From positions 2,604,001-2,668,000 of the forward strand of contig NZ_CP076024.1 of assembly GCF_022788635.1 (NCBI RefSeq): 64,000 nt of DNA, read 5' to 3'. The notes below the pieces were generated by a model. The model was not told the DNA's origin, made no database searches, and worked only from the letters and a program-made list of their open reading frames with translations. Positions 20,434 to 41,135 of the stretch are shown one piece after another (the first letter of the stretch is position 1; each line of letters opens with the position of its first letter). The translations under genes and the position numbers were made by a program. This DNA comes from Methylobacter sp. S3L5C. GTDB lineage: Bacteria > Pseudomonadota > Gammaproteobacteria > Methylococcales > Methylomonadaceae.

Positions 20434-21090
20434 TCAGAATTTGGCAATGCCAGCAAAGTGAGCGAGTAGTTTAGGAAGCTGAGACATATCGTCAAATCGC
20501 ACTATAGATCGGCATGACGAGGTTTCACCCTTTCGTACATACTGAAATGCTTGCATTCCTGCTGCTGTGGCAGCCTCAATCCCAACGTCACTATCTTCTA
20601 CAACCACGCATTGTCCAGGTCTAAAGCCCATCGCATTTGCTGCGAATTGGAATAGACCTGGTTCCGGCTTCCATGATCCCACTTCATATGAACTAAAGAT
20701 GCTCTCACCAAAGTAAGGTGCAAGGCCGCTAACTTGCAGCGCCTGACGAATTTTCAAAGGAGGCCCACTTGAGGCAATACACCTGGAGAAGTTTGTGGCT
20801 TCGAGCATCTCAACAACGCCTGGCATAGGTTTCAATTCACGAGAGAAAAGTTCCGTAACACGTTGGCGATAATGTTGTTCAAAGTCATCTGGTAGATTCT
20901 GGCAAAGGCGGCCCTCAAGATCAGCAAGAATTGGGGCCAGCTTTTTGCCACGATACTGCTGAATCAATGATTCCACTGTATCGCTCAGTTGTGGGAGCAG
21001 ATCAAGAAATGCTTGATTGCAAAGCCCCTCGCTATCTACGAGCGTGCCGTCCAAATCAAAGATTACACAGATATCTAAATGGGATAACAT
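20434..21090 (-). CDS. HAD-superfamily phosphatase, beta-phosphoglucomutase/YieH type
   Basis: 218 residues. Motif I VIFDLDGTLVDSE, motif II CIASSGPPLKIRQAL, the conserved Lys in SWKPEPGLFQFAANAMG, and motif IV VVVEDSDVGIEAATAAGM define a subfamily IA HAD hydrolase with an alpha-helical cap. Relatives dephosphorylate sugar phosphates or similar small metabolites. Cytoplasmic. No operon partner. Confidence 0.85.
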   Translation of the reverse strand: MLSHLDICVIFDLDGTLVDSEGLCNQAFLDLLPQLSDTVESLIQQYRGKKLAPILADLEGRLCQNLPDDFEQHYRQRVTELFSRELKPMPGVVEMLEATNFSRCIASSGPPLKIRQALQVSGLAPYFGESIFSSYEVGSWKPEPGLFQFAANAMGFRPGQCVVVEDSDVGIEAATAAGMQAFQYVRKGETSSCRSIVRFDDMSQLPKLLAHFAGIAKF

Positions 21091-23518: not shown

Positions 23519-24735
23519 TCAGATAGGCCGAATCATAATGTCCGATTTGGGCAAGATTGGGTTACATTCCAGTCTGGCTTCAATCGCCAACATCGTTTTC
23601 TTAGACAGTGAAATTCCTTTTTGATAAATCGTCTTGCTTAATTTGACTACTGGCTTTAATCCCTTCCAAGTCATGCTTTTTGCCCATTCCAGCATGGTAT
23701 CAACGGTTACCAACTTCGTACCATTCCAATGTTGCTCCAAAATACCCCAGCAGCGCTCAATTGGATTGTACTTGCTGTGGTAAGGCGGATAGTAGAGCAG
23801 CTGAACTATTTTTCTGGTGTGGGGTCCGCAAAGTCGACAATGCGTTTAAGGAACTGCGTGCGCACACCGCTGCTTTTTGGGCCATTATCAACCTTTATCT
23901 GGACATGCGCGATTGCCGCACGGTCTTGTGTGCCGGTGTTTTTCCACCAACTCATCAAACTGTCTACGATGAAATCGCTGGTCTTGAAGGAGCTACCGAA
24001 TGTCAGATATAACGCCCCTTCGTTCTCATCTATGATACCAAAGGGAACGTATTTTTCCTTACACCCCATATCATGGTGAGCAGCACGGTGGTCACCACGC
24101 GTCTTTCCACCCTGTGAGTAATCGCCGACATTGACTGTGGCTTTGCCGTCTATACTGAGACGTTTGACTTGTCTATTACCCATAGAATCCTCGTCTGCCA
24201 AGATTTTTCCATCTTTTTCATGGATATTGTCAAAGATGGCATCTGTTTCTGGAAGTTTCTTTTGCGGCTTGGCCTTAACCACCCTACTTAGTTGGTAACT
24301 ATTGCGGTTCAAAACCTCCGCCATGGTGCTGGATGAGGGTAGTTGATCCGCTTGGAAGCCTTGGGCAGTTAACTGCTCCAAAGCTTTCGCTGCGGTCAGT
24401 CGCGTGTATAACAGCGAAGTATGAAAGGTCGGATCTTGCTGACGGTAAGAATCTGCCATTGCCCATAGTGCCTGGGCCACATCAGGATGCTTTTCTTCCC
24501 ATAATTTATCTCCACTGCAAGCCGCTTGTGCTCCCTGACAAATAATTCCGGTGCGTTGCTCATTAAGTCCTAACTGAACGGTATAACGACCCCAACCAAA
24601 TATCCTCTCCGCTAATCGGGTGTTACCTGTGCAATGTTTTAATGTCATAAGCGCCTGAAAAGCCCTGCGTTCTGCACCTGACATTTTAGTACTCGCCAAC
24701 TTCAAAGCTTCGATTTGAGATACACTTAAGGGCAA
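23519..24735 (-). pseudogene. ISAzo13-family transposase in two frames (frameshift at an A-run)
   Basis: The 5' part (24735-23806, 309 codons) runs from MPLSVSQIEALKLASTKMSG through DAIFDNIHEKDGK, GGKTRGDHRAAHHDMGCKEK and VDNGPKSSGVRTQFLKRIVD. It stops at TAG directly after GAA AAA. One base earlier the frame continues IVQLLYYPPYHSKYNPIERC into the 3' part with EQHWNGTKLV and TMTWKG-like motifs, ending at 23519. So the whole transposase is present but split by one base at a run of five A (minus strand; 23809-23813). It may be a dead copy, or be expressed by -1 slippage of the Lys tRNA at the stop. It lies at the 3' end of the O-antigen ligase-like gene. Confidence 0.8.
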
Positions 24736-26621: not shown

Positions 26622-27343
26622 TTAAAATTGAAGGTACGGAATGAAGGAATCACCAGCAACAGTATTATTGATGGCGGTGAAAATACTTACTGAATTTTTA
26701 CGCGCAGTGGAGATATAGCCGCGAATGGAAGCAAACTGTTGCGCACCAACAAAAGTCCGAAATCCCCCGGAAACTTTCTGCTTCACTTTCACCATGCGGA
26801 TATCCCGCTCGGTAAGATTATTGTCAAACGGCACAGAAAAATAATACATAAAGGCCAATGTCCCGCCTTTATAGTCCCTTAAACGAGCCAGAAGATTATG
26901 GGCGGCGGTCTGTTTAGGTTTGCCTCGTTTTTTCATCCCACCCTCCGGCGTTTTGCTGCTGTGTAGGGGTTTTCTGCCAAGCCCTTTTTAACCAGTCCAT
27001 CGTATTGCTGTGCAAATAAAATGATTTGTCCGGGGCTTAAAGAGTCTTGTTCTGGCGGCAAGTCGGCCAGGGTGTTTTTAATGTTGACCAATAAAGTCAC
27101 CATCTCGCCCGCCCAGGTTTGTTGGAATTGCTTTTTCAGATAATCCACATCCCTTAGGTGATGGGCATTGCAGGCAACGTGTTTGCAACCATCGTAGCTG
27201 AAATAAACTTTCCAATGGTCATGCACCAATTTGCCATGAAAATTTTTCCATAATCCCGGCAGAATTCATGGCTTCTCTACCCCGTTTGGCGTGAACTTCA
27301 TAATCGGTGAGTTTGTCGATTGAGGCTGAATGCAAGTAATGCA
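26622..27343 (-). pseudogene. IS66-family transposase remnant, broken into fragments
   Basis: Three fragments of one IS66 TnpC-like protein are recognisable in order on the minus strand. About 27343-27240 reads LHYLHSASIDKLTDYEVHAK. A frame at 27229-26933 reads VHDHWKVYFSYDGCKHVACN, then AHHLRDVDYLKKQF. A frame at 26936-26622 reads FDNNLTERDIRMVKVKQKVS, then GGFRTFVGAQQFASIRGYIS. The N-terminal third, TnpA and TnpB are missing and frames are shifted. The element ends within a few hundred bases of the sMMO promoter. Confidence 0.8.
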
Positions 27344-27578: not shown

Positions 27579-27594
27579 TGGCACAGCACTTGCT
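27579..27594 (+). promoter_or_regulatory. Sigma-54 promoter of the sMMO operon
   Basis: TGGCAC (27579-27584), five bases, then TTGCT (27590-27594) is a textbook -24/-12 element with correct spacing. The predicted transcription start is about 27604-27606, leaving a ~108-base leader before mmoX. A sigma-54 promoter in front of mmoX, driven by MmoR, is known from other methanotrophs. mmoR itself, with an intact sigma-54 interaction loop, lies in the same locus. Confidence 0.9.
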
Positions 27595-27712: not shown

Positions 27713-29296
27713 ATGGCTATAAGTACAGCAACAAAAGCAGCAACCGATGCCTTGGCCGTTAATCGCGCGCCAGTCAGCGTAGGAGCACAAGAAGTACATA
27801 AATGGATGCAAAGCTTTACTTGGGATTTTGATAAAAATCGGACTAAATATTCGACTAAATACAAAATGGCCAATGATACCAAAGAGCAATTCAAGCTAAT
27901 CGCCAAAGAATATGCACGTATGGAATCGGTTAAAGACGAACGTCAATTTGGTAGTTTACAAGACGTTTTGACACGTGTTGATGCTGCTAACCGTGTACAT
28001 CCTAAATGGAATGAGTCCATGAAAGTTATTTCCAACTTTCTGGAAGTAGGTGAGTACAACGCGATTGCCGCAACCGGTATGCTGTGGGATTCTGCGTCTG
28101 CACCTGAACAAAAAAATGGTTATTTGGGTCAGGTGATGGATGAAATCCGTCATACCAACCAATGTGCCTATATTAACTACTACTTTGCCAAGCAAGGCCA
28201 AGATGCCGCCGGTCATAATGATGCCCGTCGTACACGCGCTATCGGTCCACTGTGGAAAGGTATGAAACGCGTATTCGCAGATGGCTTTATTTCCGGTGAT
28301 GCGGTTGAGTGTTCCATTAACTTGCAGTTAGTCGGTGAAGCTTGCTTTACCAATCCGTTAATCGTTGCGGTGACCGAATGGGCATCAGCAAACGGCGATG
28401 AAATGACCCCTACGGTTTTTCTGTCCATTGAAACCGATGAATTACGCCACATGGCAAACGGTTATCAAACCATCGTATCGATTGCTAATGACGAAGCGGC
28501 TTCAAAATACTTGAACACTGATTTGAACAATGCCTTCTGGACTCAACAAAAATATTTCACACCGGTACTGGGTATGATGTTTGAGTACGGCTCACATTTT
28601 AAAGTCGAGCCTTGGGTAAAAACCTGGAACCGTTGGGTATATGAAGATTGGGGCGGTATCTGGATTGGTCGTTTAGGCAAATACGGCGTTGAATCACCAG
28701 CCAGCTTACGCGATGCCAAAAAAGATGCTTACTGGGCACATCACGATTTATTCTTGCTTGCTTACGCTATGTGGCCAACAGGCTTTTTCCGTGTCTCTCT
28801 GCCGACTGCCGAAGAAGCAGAATGGTACGAAGCCAACTACCCCGGCTGGTATGAGATGTACGGAAAGGTTTATGAAGAATGGCGTGCACGTGGCTGTGAA
28901 GATCCCAACAGCGGCTTCTTGCCACTGCAATGGTTTGCTGAAAACAACCATCCAATCTATATTGACCGCGTCTCACAAGTCCCCTTTTGCCCAAGCTATT
29001 GCAAAGGTGCCAGCACGCTGCGTGTTCTTGAATCGAATGGTAAAAAACATTCGTTTAGTGATCCATGGGGCGAACGTATGTGGCTGTCTGAGCCGGAACG
29101 TTATGAGTGCCAAAATATCTTTGAACAATATGAAGGTCGTGAGTTATCAGAAGTGATTGCCGAAGGCCATGGCGTACGTAGTGACGGCTTTACTTTAATT
29201 AGTCAGCCACACACCAATAAAGACGGCAAGCTATGGACTTTGGATGATATCAAAAAGATCGGCTGCGTATTTACTGATCCTTTGAAAGCATTGTAA
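27713..29296 (+). CDS. mmoX: Soluble methane monooxygenase hydroxylase, alpha subunit
   Basis: 527 residues from the ATG at 27713, chosen because AGGAG (27701-27705) sits seven bases upstream; the frame is open further 5' but that part has no protein similarity. It carries the diiron site that oxidises methane to methanol in the cytoplasm. All ligands are present at the same numbers as in Methylococcus capsulatus: Glu114, Glu144 and His147 (DEIRH), Glu209, Glu243 and His246 (DELRH). Cys151 and Thr213 near the active site are also conserved. First gene of mmoXYBZDC, behind a sigma-54 promoter. Not truncated. Confidence 0.98.
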   Translation: MAISTATKAATDALAVNRAPVSVGAQEVHKWMQSFTWDFDKNRTKYSTKYKMANDTKEQFKLIAKEYARMESVKDERQFGSLQDVLTRVDAANRVHPKWNESMKVISNFLEVGEYNAIAATGMLWDSASAPEQKNGYLGQVMDEIRHTNQCAYINYYFAKQGQDAAGHNDARRTRAIGPLWKGMKRVFADGFISGDAVECSINLQLVGEACFTNPLIVAVTEWASANGDEMTPTVFLSIETDELRHMANGYQTIVSIANDEAASKYLNTDLNNAFWTQQKYFTPVLGMMFEYGSHFKVEPWVKTWNRWVYEDWGGIWIGRLGKYGVESPASLRDAKKDAYWAHHDLFLLAYAMWPTGFFRVSLPTAEEAEWYEANYPGWYEMYGKVYEEWRARGCEDPNSGFLPLQWFAENNHPIYIDRVSQVPFCPSYCKGASTLRVLESNGKKHSFSDPWGERMWLSEPERYECQNIFEQYEGRELSEVIAEGHGVRSDGFTLISQPHTNKDGKLWTLDDIKKIGCVFTDPLKAL

Positions 29297-29424: not shown

Positions 29425-30603
29425 ATGTCAATTGAAGTATCCGGCGGCAAACGCGGCCTGACAGATCCTGTTATTGCCGCGCAAATTTTAGCAGCAATCC
29501 CTGACAAGCCATTAGAAACACAACGTAAAATGAATTACTTTGTTACGCCGCGAGGTCGTAGGCTAAACGAGTATGAAGTTTTATGTTGTTACACGCAACC
29601 GACACCCGACTGGATTGCTGGTGGTTTGGATTGGGGTGACTGGACGCAAAAATTCCACGGTGGTCGCCCGTCATGGAGCAACGAGTCTACTGAAATGCGT
29701 ACGACTGACTGGCACAAACATCGTGATCCGGCTTTTCGCTGGCATTACCTGTATGTAAAAGATAAAGCTGAAGAATGGCGCTATACCGACCGTTTTCTTA
29801 AAGCTTATTCTGCCGACGGTCATGTTCGTTCAATTGATCCGGTTTGGCGCGATGAAGTGCTGGGTGATTATTTGGGTGCTTTTGGCTTTAGTGAGTATGG
29901 TTTATTCAATTCGCATTCATCGGTAACCCGTGATTGCCTGGGTGATACCATCCGCATGAGTACCGCCATGATCGGCCTGGATAAAGTTGATAATGCACAA
30001 ATGATTCAGGCAGAAAGAACTTTTCTGGCCAAAATTGTACCTGGATTTAACGAGTCTACTGATATCCCCAAAGCAGAATGGACTAAAGGCCAAATCTACA
30101 AGGGCGCAAGAGAAACCGTTGAAGATATTTGGCAGACAACTTATGACTGGAACGAGATTTTATTCTCGGGTCACATGATTTACGATCCGTTGTTCGGTCA
30201 GTTTGTACGCAGGGAATTCTTTTTAAGATTGTCGGCTTATTACGGCGATAACTTAACACCATTCTTTATCAATCAAATGCAGTTATATCATTCACAAACC
30301 AAAGGCATTACTACTGACATGTTCCACACCTGTCTCAGTGCTGACTCTGAGTTTGGTGAATACAACGATCGTTTGATGCGTGCCTGGAGCGATAAATGGT
30401 TGCCTAGAACAGTCAATGCGCTGAAAGATTTTATGGGTATTTTTGCGAAAATCCCTGAAATTAAAGGCGTAACCAGCAAAGAGGCGATTCAAGCAGCATT
30501 AGAGCGGGTTTTTGAAGATTGGGAACGGGATTACGCAGCCCCAATTGGCTATAAAGTCGATACAGCCGCATACATTAAAACCATATTAACCGGTCTTAAA
30601 TAA
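29425..30603 (+). CDS. mmoY: Soluble methane monooxygenase hydroxylase, beta subunit
   Basis: 392 residues, the usual length. Structural subunit of the (alpha-beta-gamma)2 hydroxylase. It is related in fold to MmoX but lacks the diiron ligands. Recognisable by the N-terminal KRGLTDPVIAAQILAAIPD, the DWIAGGLDWGDWTQKFHGG stretch, and SSVTRDCLGDTIR. AAGGAA precedes the ATG by about seven bases. Third-position use resembles mmoX. It follows a 128-base spacer with a large stem-loop and leads without gaps into mmoB. Confidence 0.97.
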   Translation: MSIEVSGGKRGLTDPVIAAQILAAIPDKPLETQRKMNYFVTPRGRRLNEYEVLCCYTQPTPDWIAGGLDWGDWTQKFHGGRPSWSNESTEMRTTDWHKHRDPAFRWHYLYVKDKAEEWRYTDRFLKAYSADGHVRSIDPVWRDEVLGDYLGAFGFSEYGLFNSHSSVTRDCLGDTIRMSTAMIGLDKVDNAQMIQAERTFLAKIVPGFNESTDIPKAEWTKGQIYKGARETVEDIWQTTYDWNEILFSGHMIYDPLFGQFVRREFFLRLSAYYGDNLTPFFINQMQLYHSQTKGITTDMFHTCLSADSEFGEYNDRLMRAWSDKWLPRTVNALKDFMGIFAKIPEIKGVTSKEAIQAALERVFEDWERDYAAPIGYKVDTAAYIKTILTGLK

Positions 30604-30612
30604 GGAATTATT

Positions 30613-31038
30613 ATGTCTACCAATGCCAATTCGTACGGCGCAGGTATCATGGCAAAAACAGGCAAAGCCTTTGCTGATGAATACTTCGCCGAAGAAAATC
30701 AAGTTTGTAAAGAAACCAACGATGTCGTTTTGGTTCTGAAAAAATCAGATGAAATGAACACCGTCGTTCAAGAAATTTTGCTGGGTGATCATAAAGATGA
30801 CAACCCCACACTGGTCGTAGAAGATCGTGCCGGTTACTGGTGGCTAAAAGCGACCGGTAAAATTGAAGTTGATTGTCGTGAAGTCTCTGAACTGCTGGGT
30901 AAACACTTTAGCGTTTATGACTTTTTGGTGGATGTTTCTTCAACTATTGGTCGCGCTTATACGTTGGATGAGACCTTTACCATCACATCAGAACTGATGG
31001 GTCTTGACGTCAAACTGAAAGATCTTGAAACCGTATAG
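30613..31038 (+). CDS. mmoB: Soluble methane monooxygenase regulatory protein B
   Basis: 141 residues, identical in length to the Methylococcus protein. It has no cofactor; it binds the hydroxylase near the diiron site and controls substrate and oxygen access and the redox state. Visible features: a flexible N-terminal tail (about 1-35) and the conserved core DNPTLVVEDRAGYWWLKATG. Nine bases separate it from mmoY and nine from mmoZ, with AAGGAA upstream. Confidence 0.96.
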   Translation: MSTNANSYGAGIMAKTGKAFADEYFAEENQVCKETNDVVLVLKKSDEMNTVVQEILLGDHKDDNPTLVVEDRAGYWWLKATGKIEVDCREVSELLGKHFSVYDFLVDVSSTIGRAYTLDETFTITSELMGLDVKLKDLETV

Positions 31039-31047
31039 GAGATAATA

Positions 31048-31548
31048 ATGGCTAACATTCATGATAACCCAACGCGTGATGCCTGGGTCAAACAAATCGC
31101 TGGATTGAACACCATGGCAAAAGGCCATGCATTTTTAAAAGATTTTCGTGCCAAACACATTAATCCTTTTAAAACTGATTTTTCACTGGAACTGGATGGC
31201 CTGTGGATTGAAAGCAAAATTGAAGAAAAAGTCGCTTTATTGAAGCATGCAGAACTCAATGATGTAGAGTTTTTTAACAATACTATCAGTGGTGAAAATG
31301 CCCAAAAAGTGGCTGACGGTGTAGTCGCCAAAATGGATGCTTGTACCAATATGTACGAAGCCGAAAAAATCCATATCAACTTCAGACTGGCTAACAAGCC
31401 GCCTGTCATGCCGGTTAATGTCTTCATGGACACTGATCGTTTGTTAGGTACCAAGTTGATGGAACTTAGAAACGTTGATTACTATGCCTTGTCTTTAGAA
31501 GACTTGCGTAAAGCGCGTGGCGTCAAAGTCATCGCTTTACAATCGTAA
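31048..31548 (+). CDS. mmoZ: Soluble methane monooxygenase hydroxylase, gamma subunit
   Basis: 166 residues, all-helical small subunit of the hydroxylase, close to the usual ~169. Recognised by the start NIHDNPTRDAWVKQIAGLNT, the WIESKIEEKVALLKH stretch and the C-terminal LLGTKLMELRNVDYYALSLE. AGGAG lies just before the ATG. A ~106-base spacer follows before mmoD, with a possible imperfect hairpin (GATGTAG with CTGCATC region, about 31592-31620). Confidence 0.96.
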   Translation: MANIHDNPTRDAWVKQIAGLNTMAKGHAFLKDFRAKHINPFKTDFSLELDGLWIESKIEEKVALLKHAELNDVEFFNNTISGENAQKVADGVVAKMDACTNMYEAEKIHINFRLANKPPVMPVNVFMDTDRLLGTKLMELRNVDYYALSLEDLRKARGVKVIALQS

Positions 31549-31654: not shown

Positions 31655-31924
31655 ATGTTAGAAGCACCAGACATTTTATCTACTTCACAAGATCAGCAAA
31701 CGGATAATCCTAATACTGATCTCACTGTACTTTATGATAGCCATCCCTACACTGCTTATGCAGAAGATCTGCAATTTATGTGGCGGTGGACTATCTATCG
31801 CGACCACGTACTGATTCAGGAAGGGTGTTCGTTAACATTGGATGCATCAAAGCATTCAATAAAACATGTCATGGCTTTTTTCAACATGAAAAGTCCGAAC
31901 TCCCAGACAGAAGAGGCACTGTAG
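31655..31924 (+). CDS. mmoD: MmoD, sMMO regulatory/assembly protein
   Basis: 89 residues, a little shorter than the ~100 typical of the family. The conserved middle YAEDLQFMWRWTIYRDHVLI and EGCSLTLDASKHSIKHVMAF identify it. MmoD is not part of the active enzyme. It has been shown to bind the hydroxylase and is proposed to take part in the copper switch between soluble and particulate enzymes. Stop and mmoC start are three bases apart, so the two are coupled. Confidence 0.9.
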   Translation: MLEAPDILSTSQDQQTDNPNTDLTVLYDSHPYTAYAEDLQFMWRWTIYRDHVLIQEGCSLTLDASKHSIKHVMAFFNMKSPNSQTEEAL

Positions 31925-31927
31925 TTT

Positions 31928-32965
31928 ATGGCAAGTACCCATCAGGTAACAATTGTTACCCAGGACGATGAATCCATCACATTTGAATGTCGTTCAGATG
32001 AAGATGTCATCAGCGCCGGATTACGGCAAGATATTTATTTAATGGCGTCATGCCGCGAAGGTGGCTGTGCCACTTGCAAAGGCTTTTGCTCGGAAGGTGA
32101 TTACGTCTTGGGTAAATTCAGCTCCCAGGCGCTGCCTTCAGAGGAAGAAGATGCAGGGGAAGTGTTGCTATGTCGCTGTTATCCGACTACCGACATTGAA
32201 GTTGAAGTACCTTACACTTACGACCGTATATCATTTTCCCCGGAAGGCTTATCTTTTGAAGCAGAAGTAACTGACTTGGCGCAAATATCCAGTAACGTTA
32301 TGCGTTTACTCGTGCGCCGAATCGGTGATGATAAACAAGTTAAATTTGATTCCGGACAATTTTTTGATCTGGAAATTCCTGGTACAACGACTACCCGCTC
32401 TTATTCACCGGCAAACATAACCAACAAGCAAGGTGACCTGGAATTTTTGATTCGGATAGTCGATGGCGGCAAGTTTTCAACCTATATGAAAGACGATGCC
32501 AAAATTGGGCAAAAAATACTGGTTAAAGGCCCGTCAGGTATTTTTGGTCTAAAAGAAAACGGCTTTACACCGCGCTATTTTATTGCTGGTGGCACAGGTT
32601 TAGCCCCCATATTATCAATGGTCAGACGTATGCACGAATGGCAAGAGCCACAAAAATGCGTGATCTATTTTGGCGTTAATACTGAAGCAGAAATTTTTCA
32701 TCTGGACGAACTTGATCAGTTAGCGGCTGAAATGCCAACGTTGGAACTGAGAAATTGCGTATGGAAATGTTCAGATGATTGGCATTGTGAAAAAGGCAGT
32801 GTTGTCGATATTTTACGTCGCGATTTGCAATTAACAGGCGTCAAGCCTGATATTTATTTATGCGGTCCTCCCGGTATGGTGGATGCCACCTTCGCGGTCT
32901 GCGAAGATCAAGGTATTCCCAAAGATCGCATTTATCTGGAAAAATTCTTGCCCAGTGGATCGTAG
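31928..32965 (+). CDS. mmoC: Soluble methane monooxygenase reductase
   Basis: 345 residues. It transfers electrons from NADH to the hydroxylase. The N-terminal plant-type 2Fe-2S domain has Cys42, Cys47, Cys50 and Cys82 (CREGGCATC, then LLCRC). The FAD domain contains TTTRSYSPANI. The NAD domain contains FIAGGTGLAPILSM and the C-terminal YLCGPPGMVD. All motifs are intact and the length is normal. Last structural gene of the operon, followed by a hairpin and then a BLUF gene on the same strand. Confidence 0.97.
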   Translation: MASTHQVTIVTQDDESITFECRSDEDVISAGLRQDIYLMASCREGGCATCKGFCSEGDYVLGKFSSQALPSEEEDAGEVLLCRCYPTTDIEVEVPYTYDRISFSPEGLSFEAEVTDLAQISSNVMRLLVRRIGDDKQVKFDSGQFFDLEIPGTTTTRSYSPANITNKQGDLEFLIRIVDGGKFSTYMKDDAKIGQKILVKGPSGIFGLKENGFTPRYFIAGGTGLAPILSMVRRMHEWQEPQKCVIYFGVNTEAEIFHLDELDQLAAEMPTLELRNCVWKCSDDWHCEKGSVVDILRRDLQLTGVKPDIYLCGPPGMVDATFAVCEDQGIPKDRIYLEKFLPSGS

Positions 32966-32979
32966 AAATACCTTAATAG

Positions 32980-33008
32980 AAGAGACCAGGCAATCCGTAT
33001 GGTCTCTT
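32980..33008 (+). terminator. Hairpin after mmoC
   Basis: AAGAGACCA (32980-32988) pairs with TGGTCTCTT (33000-33008), a perfect 9-bp stem with an 11-base loop. No U-run follows, so it may be a weak terminator or an RNA-stability element that lowers expression of the downstream BLUF, mmoG group relative to the enzyme genes. Confidence 0.5.
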
Positions 33009-33079: not shown

Positions 33080-33505
33080 ATGTCACTTAATTGTTTAGTC
33101 TACGTAAGTTTGGCCAACCAAGAGATGTCTGATAAACATCTACAGGATCTGCTCAAGAAAGCCAGAGAAAAAAATGAAGCGTTAAGTATCACTGGAATGT
33201 TGCTCTTTCGTGATGGTTTTTTTATGCAAGCACTTGAAGGTGAACAACAAGACCTCGAAGAGCTGTTTACTACCATTGCCAATGATCGTCGACATCGCGA
33301 TGTGTTACAGATTTATAAAAAGCCAATTTCGCAAAGAAGTTTTCCCGATTGGAAGATGGGCTTTAATAAAATTGACGATAAAACCGTAGCAGACATTGAT
33401 GGCTTTACAGATTTTTTAAAAAATCCAACACCCGATTTTTTTATGCATCGTGCCAGTGAAGCAGAAGCACTACTCGATCAATTTAAGCACCAACTGTTCT
33501 TTTGA
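33080..33505 (+). CDS. BLUF-domain blue-light sensor inside the sMMO locus
   Basis: 141 residues, with GAGGAG six bases before the ATG. Residues 1-97 are a BLUF (FAD-binding blue-light) domain. The key residues are all present with AppA spacing: Tyr8 (LVYVSLA), Asn32 (KNEALSITGMLL), Gln50 (FFMQALEG), Trp91 and Met93 (FPDWKMGF). The signalling Tyr-Gln pair is therefore intact and photochemistry is expected. The last ~45 residues form a short tail without an enzymatic domain, so it is a short BLUF protein that must signal by protein contact. It lies 114 bases after mmoC, abuts an unknown gene and precedes mmoG. A role in light control of sMMO is inference from position alone. Confidence 0.92.
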   Translation: MSLNCLVYVSLANQEMSDKHLQDLLKKAREKNEALSITGMLLFRDGFFMQALEGEQQDLEELFTTIANDRRHRDVLQIYKKPISQRSFPDWKMGFNKIDDKTVADIDGFTDFLKNPTPDFFMHRASEAEALLDQFKHQLFF

Positions 33506-33841
33506 ATGTCGACAAGACCGTTAACTGCAACGTTATTTGAGGTGGGTATGAAACCTGATGATGTTGATTTTCTTGGCGAGATGGTTGTTCAACTGGATGT
33601 AACCATTAGAAGATTAGTGATAGAAGAGCATGAACTGGTTCTCAAATTAGGCTCTTTTAGGGTTCAGGAATTAAAAGAATTCTGGAATCAGGAATTAACC
33701 AGCGAAGAAGATGCTGAATTTAAAAGAACCCTGGATTATTGGGAAAAAATCCTTATTCGTACTTGGGCACACTTAAGTCGAGCACATAAATCCCGTGCAC
33801 AAGTAGGACAGACATTTATGAAATTAAATTCAAAACTTTAA
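33506..33841 (+). CDS. Unrecognised small protein coupled to the BLUF gene
   Basis: 111 residues from the ATG that touches the BLUF stop (TGAATG), implying translational coupling. An in-frame ATG at 33548, after a purine-rich GAGGTGGG, is an alternative start giving 97 residues. Predicted mostly helical, with alternating charged and hydrophobic residues (RRLVIEEHELVLKL, then LTSEEDAEFKRTLDYW). No signal peptide, membrane segment or known domain was recognised. It ends 20 bases before mmoG. The position makes it a candidate partner of the BLUF protein or an assembly factor of the monooxygenase; nothing in the sequence proves either. Confidence 0.75.
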   Translation: MSTRPLTATLFEVGMKPDDVDFLGEMVVQLDVTIRRLVIEEHELVLKLGSFRVQELKEFWNQELTSEEDAEFKRTLDYWEKILIRTWAHLSRAHKSRAQVGQTFMKLNSKL

Positions 33842-33861: not shown

Positions 33862-35547
33862 ATGAGTAAACAGATTATTTACAACCCTGAAGCACGCTTA
33901 AAAATGATGGCCGGGATTGATAGAGTTGCACGTGCAGTCATTGTAACAATGGGTAGTAATGGCCCTGCCGTCATGATTCAGCATCGCACCGACGGCATTA
34001 TGCCCATTTTTACCCGGGACGGTGTTACGGTAGCCAGATCAATCAATTTTGATGACAGAATTACCGATTTGGGCGGACGGATGCTGCGTGATGTTGCCGG
34101 TGCTGTTTCACGACAAGTCGGTGACGGTACAACCACCTCGATTGTACTGGCACAAAAACTGGCGCAAGACTGTTTAAAAAGTGTTGCCGCAGGCTTTCAC
34201 CCTTTACAGTTAAAAAAAGGCCTGGATATTGGCCTGGCTTTAGTGGAAAAAAATCTGGCAGACAAAGCCTTTACCGAGGTTAGCGCCGACTGGATAGAAA
34301 AAATTTCTGCGGTGGCGACTAAAGATGAACCGGGGGTCGGTAAACTGCTGGCTGAAGCTCTCGATAAATTAGGTGTACAAGGTACATTAACCTTTCAAAT
34401 GGGTAACAGCCGACAAGATGAATTGGAGATTGTTGACGGCGCACAATATCCACAAGGCTTCATATCGCCTTATTTTATGACCGATAAAACCCGTGAAGAA
34501 GCGGTGTTGGAGAACCCTTATATTCTGCTTTACGACCGTGACATTGATGACATGATGGACTTGGTGCCACTTTTGGAAGTGGTCAAAGCACAAGGACGTT
34601 CGCTGTTAATTATTGCTGAAAATGTCATTGATAAAGCTTTAACCGGCTTATTGCTGAATCATGTGCGTGGAATTTTTAAGGTTGTGGCGGTTAAGCCCCC
34701 GGGTTTTGGTGATAAACGCCTTAATCGTTTTAAAGATTTAGCCCTGTTAACCGGTGGCCATGCAATTCTTGATGACTATAGCTCGCCCAAACTTGAGGAC
34801 GTTACCTTGGATCTGTTGGGCCAAGCAACGCGGGTAATCGTTACCGCGAATTCAACAACGATTATCGGTGCGGCAGGTGACCAAACTGCTATCGACGTGC
34901 GCACGGAAACATTACGCCAGGAAGCGGCAATTATTTTAGCCAAAAAGCCCGGACAAGGCTCTGCTACCGGTAATAAACACGACTATGAAGAATTGGAAGA
35001 TCGCATTGCCTTCCTGAAAGGTAGAACCGGTGTATTTAGTGTCGGCGGAATGGCTGATTTTGAAATAAAAGAACGTCTGATCCGTATTGAAAATGCTTAT
35101 ATGTCGGCTATAGCCGCTCTTGAAGAAGGTGTTTTACCCGGTGGCGGCGTTGCCTTGTTTTGCTGTATTAAAGCGCTTGATAGCGTCATTGCCGAAAATG
35201 CAGAGCAACAGCAAGGTATCAAGATTTTGCAAGCCGCATTAAGCGCTCCCTTGCAAAAAATAGCCCAAAATGCCGGTTTAAATAGTGAGGCCGTAATTGC
35301 CCGCTTAAATGCGCAAGATGATGACAGTTTCACACTGGATACCCAGCGTCAGCTGTACGGAAACTTTTTGGAGATTGGCATTATTGATCCCGTTAAAGTT
35401 ATGCGTCTGGCATTACGCAATGCTGTCAGCGTGGTAAGTACTATGATGACGACAGAAACCATTGTTATGGATGTCCCCGATAATTCAATTATGGAGGGTT
35501 ATTCACCGGAATGGGCAGCGGCGACCCGCGAGGATCCTAGAGCCTAA
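33862..35547 (+). CDS. mmoG: MmoG, GroEL-like chaperonin of the sMMO operon
   Basis: 561 residues. A full-length chaperonin-60 relative with the ATP-binding loop VGDGTTTSIVLAQKL and the C-terminal ATPase-domain stretch ALEEGVLPGGGVALF, but divergent from housekeeping GroEL and without the GGM tail. In Methylosinus and Methylococcus the mmoG gene is needed for sMMO expression and is thought to fold MmoX and/or MmoR. It sits between the BLUF/unknown pair and mmoR, and is followed by two hairpins. Confidence 0.95.
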   Translation: MSKQIIYNPEARLKMMAGIDRVARAVIVTMGSNGPAVMIQHRTDGIMPIFTRDGVTVARSINFDDRITDLGGRMLRDVAGAVSRQVGDGTTTSIVLAQKLAQDCLKSVAAGFHPLQLKKGLDIGLALVEKNLADKAFTEVSADWIEKISAVATKDEPGVGKLLAEALDKLGVQGTLTFQMGNSRQDELEIVDGAQYPQGFISPYFMTDKTREEAVLENPYILLYDRDIDDMMDLVPLLEVVKAQGRSLLIIAENVIDKALTGLLLNHVRGIFKVVAVKPPGFGDKRLNRFKDLALLTGGHAILDDYSSPKLEDVTLDLLGQATRVIVTANSTTIIGAAGDQTAIDVRTETLRQEAAIILAKKPGQGSATGNKHDYEELEDRIAFLKGRTGVFSVGGMADFEIKERLIRIENAYMSAIAALEEGVLPGGGVALFCCIKALDSVIAENAEQQQGIKILQAALSAPLQKIAQNAGLNSEAVIARLNAQDDDSFTLDTQRQLYGNFLEIGIIDPVKVMRLALRNAVSVVSTMMTTETIVMDVPDNSIMEGYSPEWAAATREDPRA

Positions 35548-35641: not shown

Positions 35642-35843
35642 CGCCATGTTTAATCGCTGGCAATTAAGTAATTGAAAACGTGATACTCAGCAAAACCAAG
35701 GCTTGCCGTCAACCGGCATAGTCCCTGTACCTTATTAATTTATATCATTTTTTTATTAATCCGGTTTTATTTTTTTGTTTTACTTGTTTTGTCTTCCCTA
35801 CCTGCATCTGAAATAGATGCCCCCGTTATTTTTTAATAGCGTG

Positions 35844-35884
35844 TAGGCAATGCGTCACTATGACGCATTGCCTATTTTTTTTAT
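35844..35884 (+). terminator. Strong rho-independent terminator before mmoR
   Basis: TAGGCAATGCGTCA, loop CTA, TGACGCATTGCCTA forms a perfect 14-bp stem (35844-35857 with 35861-35874) followed at once by a run of T. It separates the sMMO operon from mmoR, so mmoR probably has its own promoter in the ~110 bases before its start. Confidence 0.92.
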
Positions 35885-35993: not shown

Positions 35994-37772
35994 ATGACTA
36001 TTGATTATACAATTCCTAATAAAGTAAGAATCATTCAAGAAGCATTATTAGTCCGACACACCATTGAATTTGAAGTTGACCGCCCTGCCCAGGCATGGCA
36101 ATGGATGAATCAAACCCGTACGATTCCGGATCAAGGCGAATGGGTACGTCCGGAAGTTACCGAGGCCTGGCGACGTTGCCTGGAAGATTACCAATTACCG
36201 TTGGGTAATTATGTCAATTGGGAAAAGTATCCCGCCATTAATAAAACAGTCAACAGCACGCATCAGTTAAGAAATATAGAAGAACTGATCAAACAATTAA
36301 GCCATAACTTCACGATATTTCTCAAAGAAGCGGGCGTCATGATGGTTCTCACTACGGCAGAAGGACGGCTGTTGTATGTCTCCGGTGAAAATCATTTACT
36401 GAGTTCATTTATAAACCAACTATATGAGCAGGGAGCAAACTGGCATGAACCTGTTTTGGGTAATAATGGTATCGGCACGGCAATCACTCTAAAAAAACCC
36501 ATTGCCTTTCAGGGTATGGAGCATTTTTTAAGTGTATTACACCCGTTTACAACGGTTGGTTATCCGTTACTGGATGATGCCGGGAACTTACTGGCGGTTA
36601 TAGGTCTGGTCAGTAATAATCACGAATGTATGAACTCACTGTTTGCTTTCCTGCATTTAATTTGTGTCTTGGTAAATACCAACTTACCTTTGGCTCAAAA
36701 TAAAATCGCTCAAGAACGGGTGTTAGAAAAATTTCATTTTAAACCGGCCATCAAGCCGTCAAACCAAGACAATGAATCCGGCATTTCAGAAGCATTGAAT
36801 TTACTCATTCAAAAAGCCGTAAAACTACAAACGCATAAAATACCTATCCTGATTACCGGTGAATCAGGCGTTGGTAAAGATCACTTCGTCAATTTACTTA
36901 AACAGGCAGGCCCCAGAAAAAATGCGCCCTTTATTGCCATCAATTGCGCATCAATACCGCATGATTTAATAGAAAGTGAATTGTTTGGTTATGAAGCAGG
37001 TAGCTTTACCGGAGCGCGAAGTAATGGCAAACCGGGAAAATTTAAGCTGGCTGACAAAGGTATTTTATTTCTGGATGAAATAGGCGATATGAGTTTTGAT
37101 TTACAATCAACTTTATTGCGGGTGTTGGAAACTTCGGAGTTTACCCCGGTAGGCGGCTGTTCGCCTATTCGTGTGGATGTGCAAGTCGTTGCGGCAACCA
37201 ATGTACAATTAATTGAGGCGGTAGAAGCCGGGCGTTTTCGGCGTGATCTTTATTATCGGCTCAATGGTGCGCAAATTCATCTTCTACCTTTACGAGAACG
37301 GCCTGATAAAAAAACCATCATTCATCATATCTTGCAACGTGAATTAAATACTATTTCCGTAACAGACCCTTTTGAAATTTGCCCGGAAGTCATTAGCCTG
37401 ATTGAACGCCATCCTTGGCCAGGTAATATTCGTCAACTGATTAACGTGATAAGAGCTACGCTTTATACCGCCAGTAATCCATTTATCAGCAAAAAAGATC
37501 TGCCGCTGGATTTTATGGCCGAACTCAAATTAAATGACGACAACTGGCAATCATCTGATGGTCACCAAACGTTTACCTCAATGCCGTTAACTCAAGAAGT
37601 GCCGATTAAGAGCTTATCGAACTGGGAATTACATGGTATAAAAACCGCATTAAAAGAATGTGACGGTAATATTTCTTTGGCGGCAAAAAGATTAGGTATT
37701 ACCCGCTCGACGCTATATAAAAAAATTGATTACTTTAGGTTGGATAAAATGGGCGACGGGTTACTCGCATGA
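35994..37772 (+). CDS. mmoR: MmoR, sigma-54-dependent activator of sMMO
   Basis: 592 residues. The N-terminal ~270 residues include a GAF-like sensor region (GVMMVLTTAEGRLLYVSGEN split, then GNNGIGTAITLKKPIAF), as in AcoR-type activators. The central AAA+ domain has Walker A GESGVGKD (about 288-297), the sigma-54 loop GSFTGA (about 336), Walker B ILFLDEIGDM and the arginine-finger region RFRRDLYYRL. The C-terminal Fis-type helix-turn-helix reads SLAAKRLGITRSTLYKKI. It is the expected activator of the -24/-12 promoter before mmoX. The signal is unknown; copper is implied by work in other methanotrophs. Confidence 0.95.
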   Translation: MTIDYTIPNKVRIIQEALLVRHTIEFEVDRPAQAWQWMNQTRTIPDQGEWVRPEVTEAWRRCLEDYQLPLGNYVNWEKYPAINKTVNSTHQLRNIEELIKQLSHNFTIFLKEAGVMMVLTTAEGRLLYVSGENHLLSSFINQLYEQGANWHEPVLGNNGIGTAITLKKPIAFQGMEHFLSVLHPFTTVGYPLLDDAGNLLAVIGLVSNNHECMNSLFAFLHLICVLVNTNLPLAQNKIAQERVLEKFHFKPAIKPSNQDNESGISEALNLLIQKAVKLQTHKIPILITGESGVGKDHFVNLLKQAGPRKNAPFIAINCASIPHDLIESELFGYEAGSFTGARSNGKPGKFKLADKGILFLDEIGDMSFDLQSTLLRVLETSEFTPVGGCSPIRVDVQVVAATNVQLIEAVEAGRFRRDLYYRLNGAQIHLLPLRERPDKKTIIHHILQRELNTISVTDPFEICPEVISLIERHPWPGNIRQLINVIRATLYTASNPFISKKDLPLDFMAELKLNDDNWQSSDGHQTFTSMPLTQEVPIKSLSNWELHGIKTALKECDGNISLAAKRLGITRSTLYKKIDYFRLDKMGDGLLA

Positions 37773-40364: not shown

Positions 40365-40703
40365 ATGAAACTAAAACTCGAAAAAATAAATGATTGTAGT
40401 GTTATATTTATTGAGGAAGAAAGAATAGATGCTCACAATTCGGGCGAATTAAAAGCCTACATCCTGCAGTTGATAGAAAATGGCGACGTTAATATTATCG
40501 TTCAACTCGAAAATGTTCGCTTTATAGACAGTTCCGGCTTGGGTGCCTTACTATCAGGACATAAAAATGCGGTAGCTAAATCCGGCAAGCTTGGTTTAGC
40601 CTGTTGCAGGCAACAAGTATTATCAATGTTTGAGTTAACCCGGTTAAACCGGGTTTTTGAGATTTATACTGATCTAAATGAAGCTTTTGAAAACGAAGCC
40701 TAG
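40365..40703 (+). CDS. STAS-domain anti-sigma-factor antagonist
   Basis: 112 residues, a single STAS domain. The conserved motif FIDSSGLGALLSGHKNA contains the Ser that a partner kinase phosphorylates. Ten bases later comes the gene for an RsbW-type kinase, so this is the antagonist of a partner-switching module. The controlled output (sigma factor or other target) is not in this window. Confidence 0.88.
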   Translation: MKLKLEKINDCSVIFIEEERIDAHNSGELKAYILQLIENGDVNIIVQLENVRFIDSSGLGALLSGHKNAVAKSGKLGLACCRQQVLSMFELTRLNRVFEIYTDLNEAFENEA

Positions 40704-40712
40704 GGGTTATGT

Positions 40713-41135
40713 ATGTGTAATTCGGTTCTACAGGTAGATGTAATCATTCCGACGCAGACCAAATATCTGGATTTAATCGGCAGTATTGGTGAACATATAG
40801 CGAAAGATATTGATGATTTTTCTGGTGACAGGGAGGCGTTGGCTTATCATTTAAACCTGGTATTGACTGAAGCCACGACTAATGCCATTAAGCATGCCAC
40901 GCTAACTACCCCGAAAGATACCGTCAGGATAACCATCCATATTCAGGATAATGAGCTGAATATCAAGGTTTATGACCATGGTCAGGGCTTTGACCTGGAA
41001 ACGGTGCCGTTACCTGATTTTGAGCAACCTGAAGAAAGCGGTATGGGGCTCTACTTCATTAGAACCTTTATGGATTCAGTTACTTACACCAAGCAAGATG
41101 ATTGTAATGTGTTGGAAATTACAAAATATCTATAG
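40713..41135 (+). CDS. Serine-protein kinase / anti-sigma factor (RsbW-like HATPase)
   Basis: 140 residues, a GHKL ATPase of the RsbW/SpoIIAB type: N-box LTEATTNAIKHA, the ATP-lid region VYDHGQGFD and the final G-box ESGMGLYFIRTFMD. It should phosphorylate the STAS protein encoded just upstream. No PP2C phosphatase lies nearby. The next gene, NAD-glutamate dehydrogenase, begins 57 bases later on the same strand and may share the transcript. Confidence 0.88.
   Translation: MCNSVLQVDVIIPTQTKYLDLIGSIGEHIAKDIDDFSGDREALAYHLNLVLTEATTNAIKHATLTTPKDTVRITIHIQDNELNIKVYDHGQGFDLETVPLPDFEQPEESGMGLYFIRTFMDSVTYTKQDDCNVLEITKYL

Follow-up and report, generated by a model that had tools for sequence, protein, structure and literature searches.

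A PixD-like BLUF photoreceptor gene in the soluble methane monooxygenase operon of Methylobacter sp. S3L5C and its recurrence in Methylococcales-type loci

Our study found a gene for a short BLUF protein within the soluble methane monooxygenase (sMMO) operon of Methylobacter sp. S3L5C, between mmoC and mmoE; the gene is truly there and recurs at the same place in other genomes, and we found no earlier description of it. Judged from its sequence, the product is a short, PixD-like BLUF receptor for blue light, with clear BLUF identity and intact photoactive residues. Our main reading, to which we give a probability of roughly 0.55, is that the product is a working light receptor tied to sMMO, and that the gene is part of the Methylococcales sMMO operon. 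Light would then be expected to affect sMMO expression or activity, and an effect on methane oxidation is offered here as a strong and cheaply testable hypothesis rather than as a result. The window is the whole stretch of DNA that was analysed, 64,000 nucleotides of contig NZ_CP076024.1.

Results

Methylobacter sp. S3L5C is a lake methanotroph with a single chromosome of 4,815,745 bp that carries both pmoCAB and mmoXYBZDC, as given in the available part of its description (PMC9723741). Our genome search returned one AMO/PmoA-type match, and its sole BLUF match was the gene in the sMMO operon. This gene starts with ATG, a few bases downstream of a GAGGAG motif, in agreement with the good ribosome site claimed in the initial annotation, and the short BLUF protein with photoactive residues described there was borne out by the profile match (Table 1) and by alignment. 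The protein is a single Pfam domain of PixD length, scoring 109.2 bits (cut-off 25) and covering positions 2-92 of the 92 in the PF04940 profile. At E ≤0.001 it matched 22 distinct entries among the PDB sequences, all of which we take to be BLUF proteins. BLUF domains bind FAD, and those of PixD size act through contacts that are altered in light. Because the alignment with Tll0078/TePixD runs without gaps across residues 1-100, Tyr8, Asn32, Gln50, Trp91 and Met93 fall on the corresponding PixD positions (as numbered in the accessible text of PMC5899715). According to the same source, Gln50, Asn32 and Tyr8 of PixD form the FAD network, Met93 relays to the C-terminal helices and Trp91 is less important than its AppA counterpart. 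The protein is predicted to bind FAD and to undergo the usual BLUF photocycle. A structure model built from 16 relatives was of low confidence (pLDDT 56.8), and its top Foldseek matches in the PDB were BLUF structures (best E 1.2e-9, TM ~0.57); it places a helix at residues 118-140, C-terminal to the domain, with a pLDDT of <50 in that part.

Table 1. Features of the sMMO locus of Methylobacter sp. S3L5C, in window coordinates
Feature	Position	Strand	Basis or remark
sigma-54 (-24/-12) promoter-like site	27579..27593	+	exact TGGCACN5TTGC, ~120 bp upstream of mmoX
mmoX, sMMO hydroxylase alpha	27713..29296	+	77-100% identity (best segment) to 75 loci fetched with MmoX
mmoY	29425..30603	+	NF045802 above cut-off
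mmoB	30613..31038	+	NF045804 above cut-off
mmoZ	31048..31548	+	NF045805 above cut-off
mmoD	31655..31924	+	TIGR04550 above cut-off
mmoC, FAD/2Fe-2S reductase	31928..32965	+	NF045803 above cut-off
intercistronic RNA hairpin, ~9 bp stem, no T run	32980..33008	+	136-base stretch z -2.0; 8/200 shuffles fold as well
short BLUF protein gene	33080..33505	+	141 aa; PF04940 E 1.2e-31; PDB BLUF matches; residues in 19/19 sMMO rows
mmoE (ORF1)	33506..33841	+	111 aa from first ATG; start near 33548 possible; 34 sequences aligned
mmoG, GroEL-like chaperonin	33862..35547	+	PF00118; GroEL subfamily models, under GroEL equivalog cut-off
terminator, 15-bp stem and T run	35843..35875	+	between mmoG and mmoR; ranks first among 11 terminator-like sites, against 4.4 expected in shuffles
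mmoR, sigma-54-dependent activator	35994..37772	+	PF00158 and HTH_8

The genes lie on the forward strand in the order mmoX-Y-B-Z-D-C-BLUF-mmoE-mmoG, followed by mmoR. The BLUF gene had at first been placed between mmoC and mmoG on the same strand; its position in the operon stands, but mmoE, which separates it from mmoG, had been missed. The site upstream of mmoX carries what we take to be the sigma-54 (-24/-12) motif, and it is the one exact copy among five matches in the window, a total that, with one mismatch allowed, compares with 5.9 expected by chance. No sigma-70-like or terminator-like site was found on the forward strand of the gap between mmoC and the BLUF gene. Judged from this layout, BLUF is probably co-transcribed with sMMO on a sigma-54/MmoR-driven message. 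Counted against the main reading were a one-mismatch sigma-54 match at chance level within mmoC (32590-32604), weaker terminator-like sites elsewhere in the unit, including the mmoZ-mmoD gap and the end of mmoC, and gaps of 476 and 154 bp in the locus of M. buryatense (L035). More than one transcript may arise from the unit, as a terminator and a promoter have been predicted between mmoZ and mmoD of another species (PMC9324122, available text).

The hairpin in the gap between mmoC and the BLUF gene has counterparts, mostly unlike it in sequence, in eight relatives that were folded without a shuffle control (L002, L003, L004, L005, L008, L014, L060 and L073), and the same gap folds weakly in L009, L018 and L075. 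Such hairpins may set a lower expression of the downstream genes. Upstream, the sMMO locus borders the remains of mobile elements, as IS66 transposase pieces lie just 5' of mmoX (26622-27229) and a DDE transposase lies beyond an O-antigen ligase gene (23806-24732). Downstream, at 40365-41135, a STAS and HATPase_c_2 pair, presumably of the anti-anti-sigma and anti-sigma type, precedes a large NAD-glutamate dehydrogenase gene.

The first ATG of the mmoE reading frame directly follows the end of the BLUF gene, and the conserved part of MmoE starts ~14 codons later, so that the gap between the two genes is between 0 and ~40 bases. ORF1 has been named MmoE, with its function unknown, and MmoG is a GroEL-like protein (PMC9324122, in the part available). 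MmoE had no match in Pfam or NCBIfam. Its structure was modelled with confidence as a bundle of four helices (pLDDT 88.3), yet the model gave 0 matches in the PDB at E 0.001 or better, and the fold was set aside as a clue to function. Among the 68 loci with mmoG, mmoE lies just 5' of it (gap of -60 to 600 bases) in 66, and no MmoE was found in the other two; this arrangement suggests that MmoE and MmoG form a two-gene assembly module. In alphaproteobacterial loci mmoE sits between mmoR and mmoG, and ORF1/MmoE and ORF2 of Methylocella (PMC5874634, accessible text) may be one family. In some loci that lack BLUF, a tandem pair of mmoE-like stretches lies in the BLUF slot or close to it (L028 6157-6802, L062 4929-5779, G057 and G004).

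The MmoX scan yielded 75 named loci, of which the 67 with mmoC were counted and the 8 without it were left out; a cut on MmoC score, chosen by us, divided the 67 into 48 Methylococcales-type and 19 more distant loci. A full BLUF gene occupied the slot between mmoC and mmoE in 14 of the 67, with mmoE as the next gene in all 14, and these 14 fell among the 48 Methylococcales-type loci, with none among the 19 distant ones. A profile search that included short ORFs revealed two remnants, one whose single short frame keeps just the beginning and the end of the gene (L006 5424-5558) and one with the end only (L015 15072-15308), and the remaining 51 loci had neither gene nor remnant. Of the 34 Methylococcales-type loci that lack the full gene, 23 had an mmoC-mmoE gap of <40 bases. 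The gene is carried, among others, by M. psychrophilus Z-0021 (L002), Crenothrix sp. D3 (L014), M. buryatense 5G (L035) and metagenome bins assigned the names Methylovulum (L036) and Methyloprofundus (L075). One locus, L005, has a second, more diverged BLUF gene 3' of mmoR (20476-20898) besides the usual copy in the slot.

Across 237 genomes of the family, BLUF domains were present in 128 and MmoD in 57. The sMMO-type BLUF was found in 19 genomes from eight genus codes, with 67-100% identity over all 141 residues; 18 of these carriers belong to the 57 MmoD-bearing genomes and have BLUF beside mmoD on the same contig, and the 19th (G010) has mmoC, BLUF, mmoE and mmoG on its contig. In a further genome (G229) an incomplete copy lies next to mmoE, close to the end of a contig. 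The locus and genome surveys share genomes and are not independent. The initial annotation had called for a synteny survey, regarding absence of the gene from all other sMMO loci as a sign of chance insertion; the gene was instead present in 14/67 loci and 19/237 genomes, and its recurrence in the same slot of other genomes argues against such an insertion. Presence was nevertheless patchy, which implies that sMMO works without BLUF. At least 10 changes were needed on a tree of 48 mmo loci, for which L062, with its split mmoC, was under the score cut, and a count as low was reached by 18 of 500 label shuffles; this patchiness was counted against the main reading.

Phylogenetic inference began from 108 BLUF stretches, of which 70 were distinct, and 7 fragments were left out to give a tree of 63 rows. 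The 19 sMMO rows, comprising 18 slot copies and the second BLUF of L005, fell within one group (support 98/88) together with three strays from outside sMMO loci, two of which came from a genome (G227) that also carries a slot copy. Exact monophyly of the sMMO BLUFs was not retained as a description, since the three strays stand against it and the sMMO rows formed one side of a branch in 0 of 200 bootstrap trees, although the AU test does not reject it (p 0.365). The single slot, the one main lineage and the two remnants would together be read most simply as one entry of the gene, which was later lost repeatedly and exchanged to some extent; the count of changes by itself cannot separate gain from loss. 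The BLUF gene of L024 (15300-15722) looks recombinant, as 216 of its first 219 bases match Crenothrix D3 (L014) but only 146 of its last 207 do. The same L024 protein stretch is also found in G042, and the G227 copy is apparently from the same contig as L024.

The five photoactive residues were complete in 19/19 sMMO rows and also in 42/44 other BLUF rows, so their retention is general to the BLUF family. They bear on a further proposal, that the protein serves MmoC, an FAD enzyme, as a flavin or redox helper and is not a light sensor. The gene does come next after mmoC, and FAD binding would suit such a role, but every sMMO row keeps Tyr8, Gln50 and Met93, residues that a protein which only stores FAD should not require; we consider this explanation very unlikely.

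Usable dS was available for 12 of the 105 pairs, over which the median dN/dS of BLUF was 0.109, near that of mmoZ (0.111) and below that of mmoE (0.176), and purifying selection on the sMMO BLUF is evident from these sequence comparisons. A chance insertion or a decaying gene without a present role would agree with the remnants in L006 and L015 and with the 51 loci that show neither gene nor remnant, but it is hard to square with full length in 19 genomes, this dN/dS and intact key residues. We regard it as extremely unlikely overall, and for the S3L5C genome the sequence evidence largely contradicts it.

Protein distances of BLUF correlated with those of its neighbours over all 105 pairs (mmoC 0.77, mmoG 0.77, mmoE 0.76, mmoY 0.75 and mmoX 0.70), and none stands out. 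When L024, L035 and L075 were dropped, the 66 remaining pairs gave 0.82 for mmoG, 0.81 for mmoE, 0.76 for mmoY, 0.71 for mmoC and 0.50 for mmoX. MmoE and MmoG were thus not borne out as co-evolving partners over the full set, and emerged only after these loci were dropped. The correlations fit long co-residence and are not evidence of contact.

The C-terminal motif ASEAEALLDQFKHQ(L/I)FF is strongly conserved in the sMMO BLUFs. At loci without sMMO, other short BLUFs of the family end in similar tails (e.g. KFKHEILF), and an sMMO-specific tail was therefore rejected as proof of a partner; by sequence, the tail belongs to the family at large. A similar tail also ends a PAS-histidine kinase-receiver protein with a C-terminal BLUF domain (L170 5399-7504). 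Inspection by eye revealed no recurring neighbours of the non-sMMO BLUFs among the matches listed.

Discussion

Owing to the gene order and the sigma-54-like site, the BLUF protein would be present only once the sMMO operon is on. With the operon already on by the time the sensor appears, its action would most likely be post-transcriptional and exerted, like that of PixD, through protein contact. The leading candidate target would be the MmoE/MmoG assembly module, MmoR and MmoC being other options, and the protein would tune sMMO assembly or activity or exert feedback on MmoR. A transcription switch seems to us less likely than an effect on assembly or activity, in which MmoE/MmoG may take part. 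That the protein acts as the switch between the two methane monooxygenases is less probable, since its gene belongs to the very operon that the switch would turn on; a post-transcriptional effect or feedback would fit better. In its most specific form the proposal is that sMMO is light-gated, with blue light altering the contact of BLUF with the MmoE/MmoG module (or the hydroxylase) and so setting the amount of active sMMO; this form is tentative, and we think it rather unlikely to hold in full. The direction of a light effect is not confidently predicted, and throttling would fit the reported inhibition of methanotrophy by light (PMC8748455, for a lake, and PMC12211021, both in the parts available).

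Two other explanations also assume a working receptor. The first is that BLUF is a co-expressed passenger, which uses the sMMO operon for its expression alone and signals elsewhere, for example to attachment, motility or stress. The patchy presence of the gene and the occurrence of related BLUFs at unrelated places in other genomes would both be expected of a passenger, and short BLUFs work by contact, so neighbours need not be targets. However, one slot recurs in eight genus codes, before mmoE in 14/14 named loci, and the gene does not move among operons; on balance we hold this to be an improbable, if reasonable, account. The second is transcriptional feedback, in which BLUF would bind MmoR (or a kinase) and tune the sigma-54 promoter in light, by a logic like that of AppA or PixD. 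It draws on the position of mmoR after the unit, on the second BLUF just 3' of mmoR in L005 and on the fusion of a related BLUF to the PAS-kinase-receiver protein of L170. Only feedback would be possible by this route, however, as BLUF itself depends on that promoter, and BLUF distances track those of mmoR (0.70, 66 pairs) no better than those of mmoC (0.77, 105 pairs); we judge it quite unlikely. Our main reading remains a light receptor tied to sMMO, with an action on the enzyme system after transcription favoured.

A blue-light receptor fixed in the operon of a methane-oxidizing enzyme, in eight genus codes and in the tractable M. buryatense, makes the link between light and methane testable by one deletion; markerless genetics are available in M. 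buryatense 5GB1C (PMC7136838, accessible text). If light tunes sMMO, the influence of depth and of day and night on methane emission would have a mechanism, and light might serve to control sMMO production. A light-gated sMMO, if true, would account directly, at the molecular level, for the light sensitivity of methane oxidation in lakes, for which the available text of the lake report names no molecular sensor (PMC8748455). Judged from the listed entries, the open-licence literature on BLUF or blue-light photoreceptors with methanotrophs, methylotrophs or methane monooxygenase yielded no description of an sMMO BLUF gene; in the papers retrieved for BLUF with methane monooxygenase, the word itself matched the names Bluff and Bluffstone. 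One paper, in the portion available, does mention, between mmoC and mmoG, a gene for an 'unknown hypothetical protein' that is said to have been lost from M. methanoversatilis-type loci and from M. miyakonense HT12, and the word BLUF is absent from its main text. That gene is possibly the sMMO BLUF gene; in our survey the HT12 locus (L016) has mmoE and lacks BLUF.

In comparison with known systems, the AppA BLUF domain has the same photoactive residues with the shifted numbering given in the initial annotation, and AppA chains are among the PDB and Foldseek matches, but AppA is a larger, multidomain protein whereas the sMMO BLUF is single-domain. BlsA (6w6z, 6w72) is also a short single-domain BLUF of similar size, differing in organism and setting, and we know of no BlsA operon with a metabolic enzyme. 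MmoE/ORF1 and MmoG are known neighbours in sMMO operons and are the same here, and the available text that describes them does not mention a BLUF between mmoC and mmoE (PMC9324122). PixD (Slr1694, Tll0078/TePixD), a short BLUF of cyanobacteria which acts through PixE, is like the sMMO BLUF in its length, in the gap-free alignment over residues 1-100, in the numbering of the five residues and in supplying top Foldseek matches; the sMMO BLUF differs from it in having another C-terminal tail and in its place within the sMMO operon.
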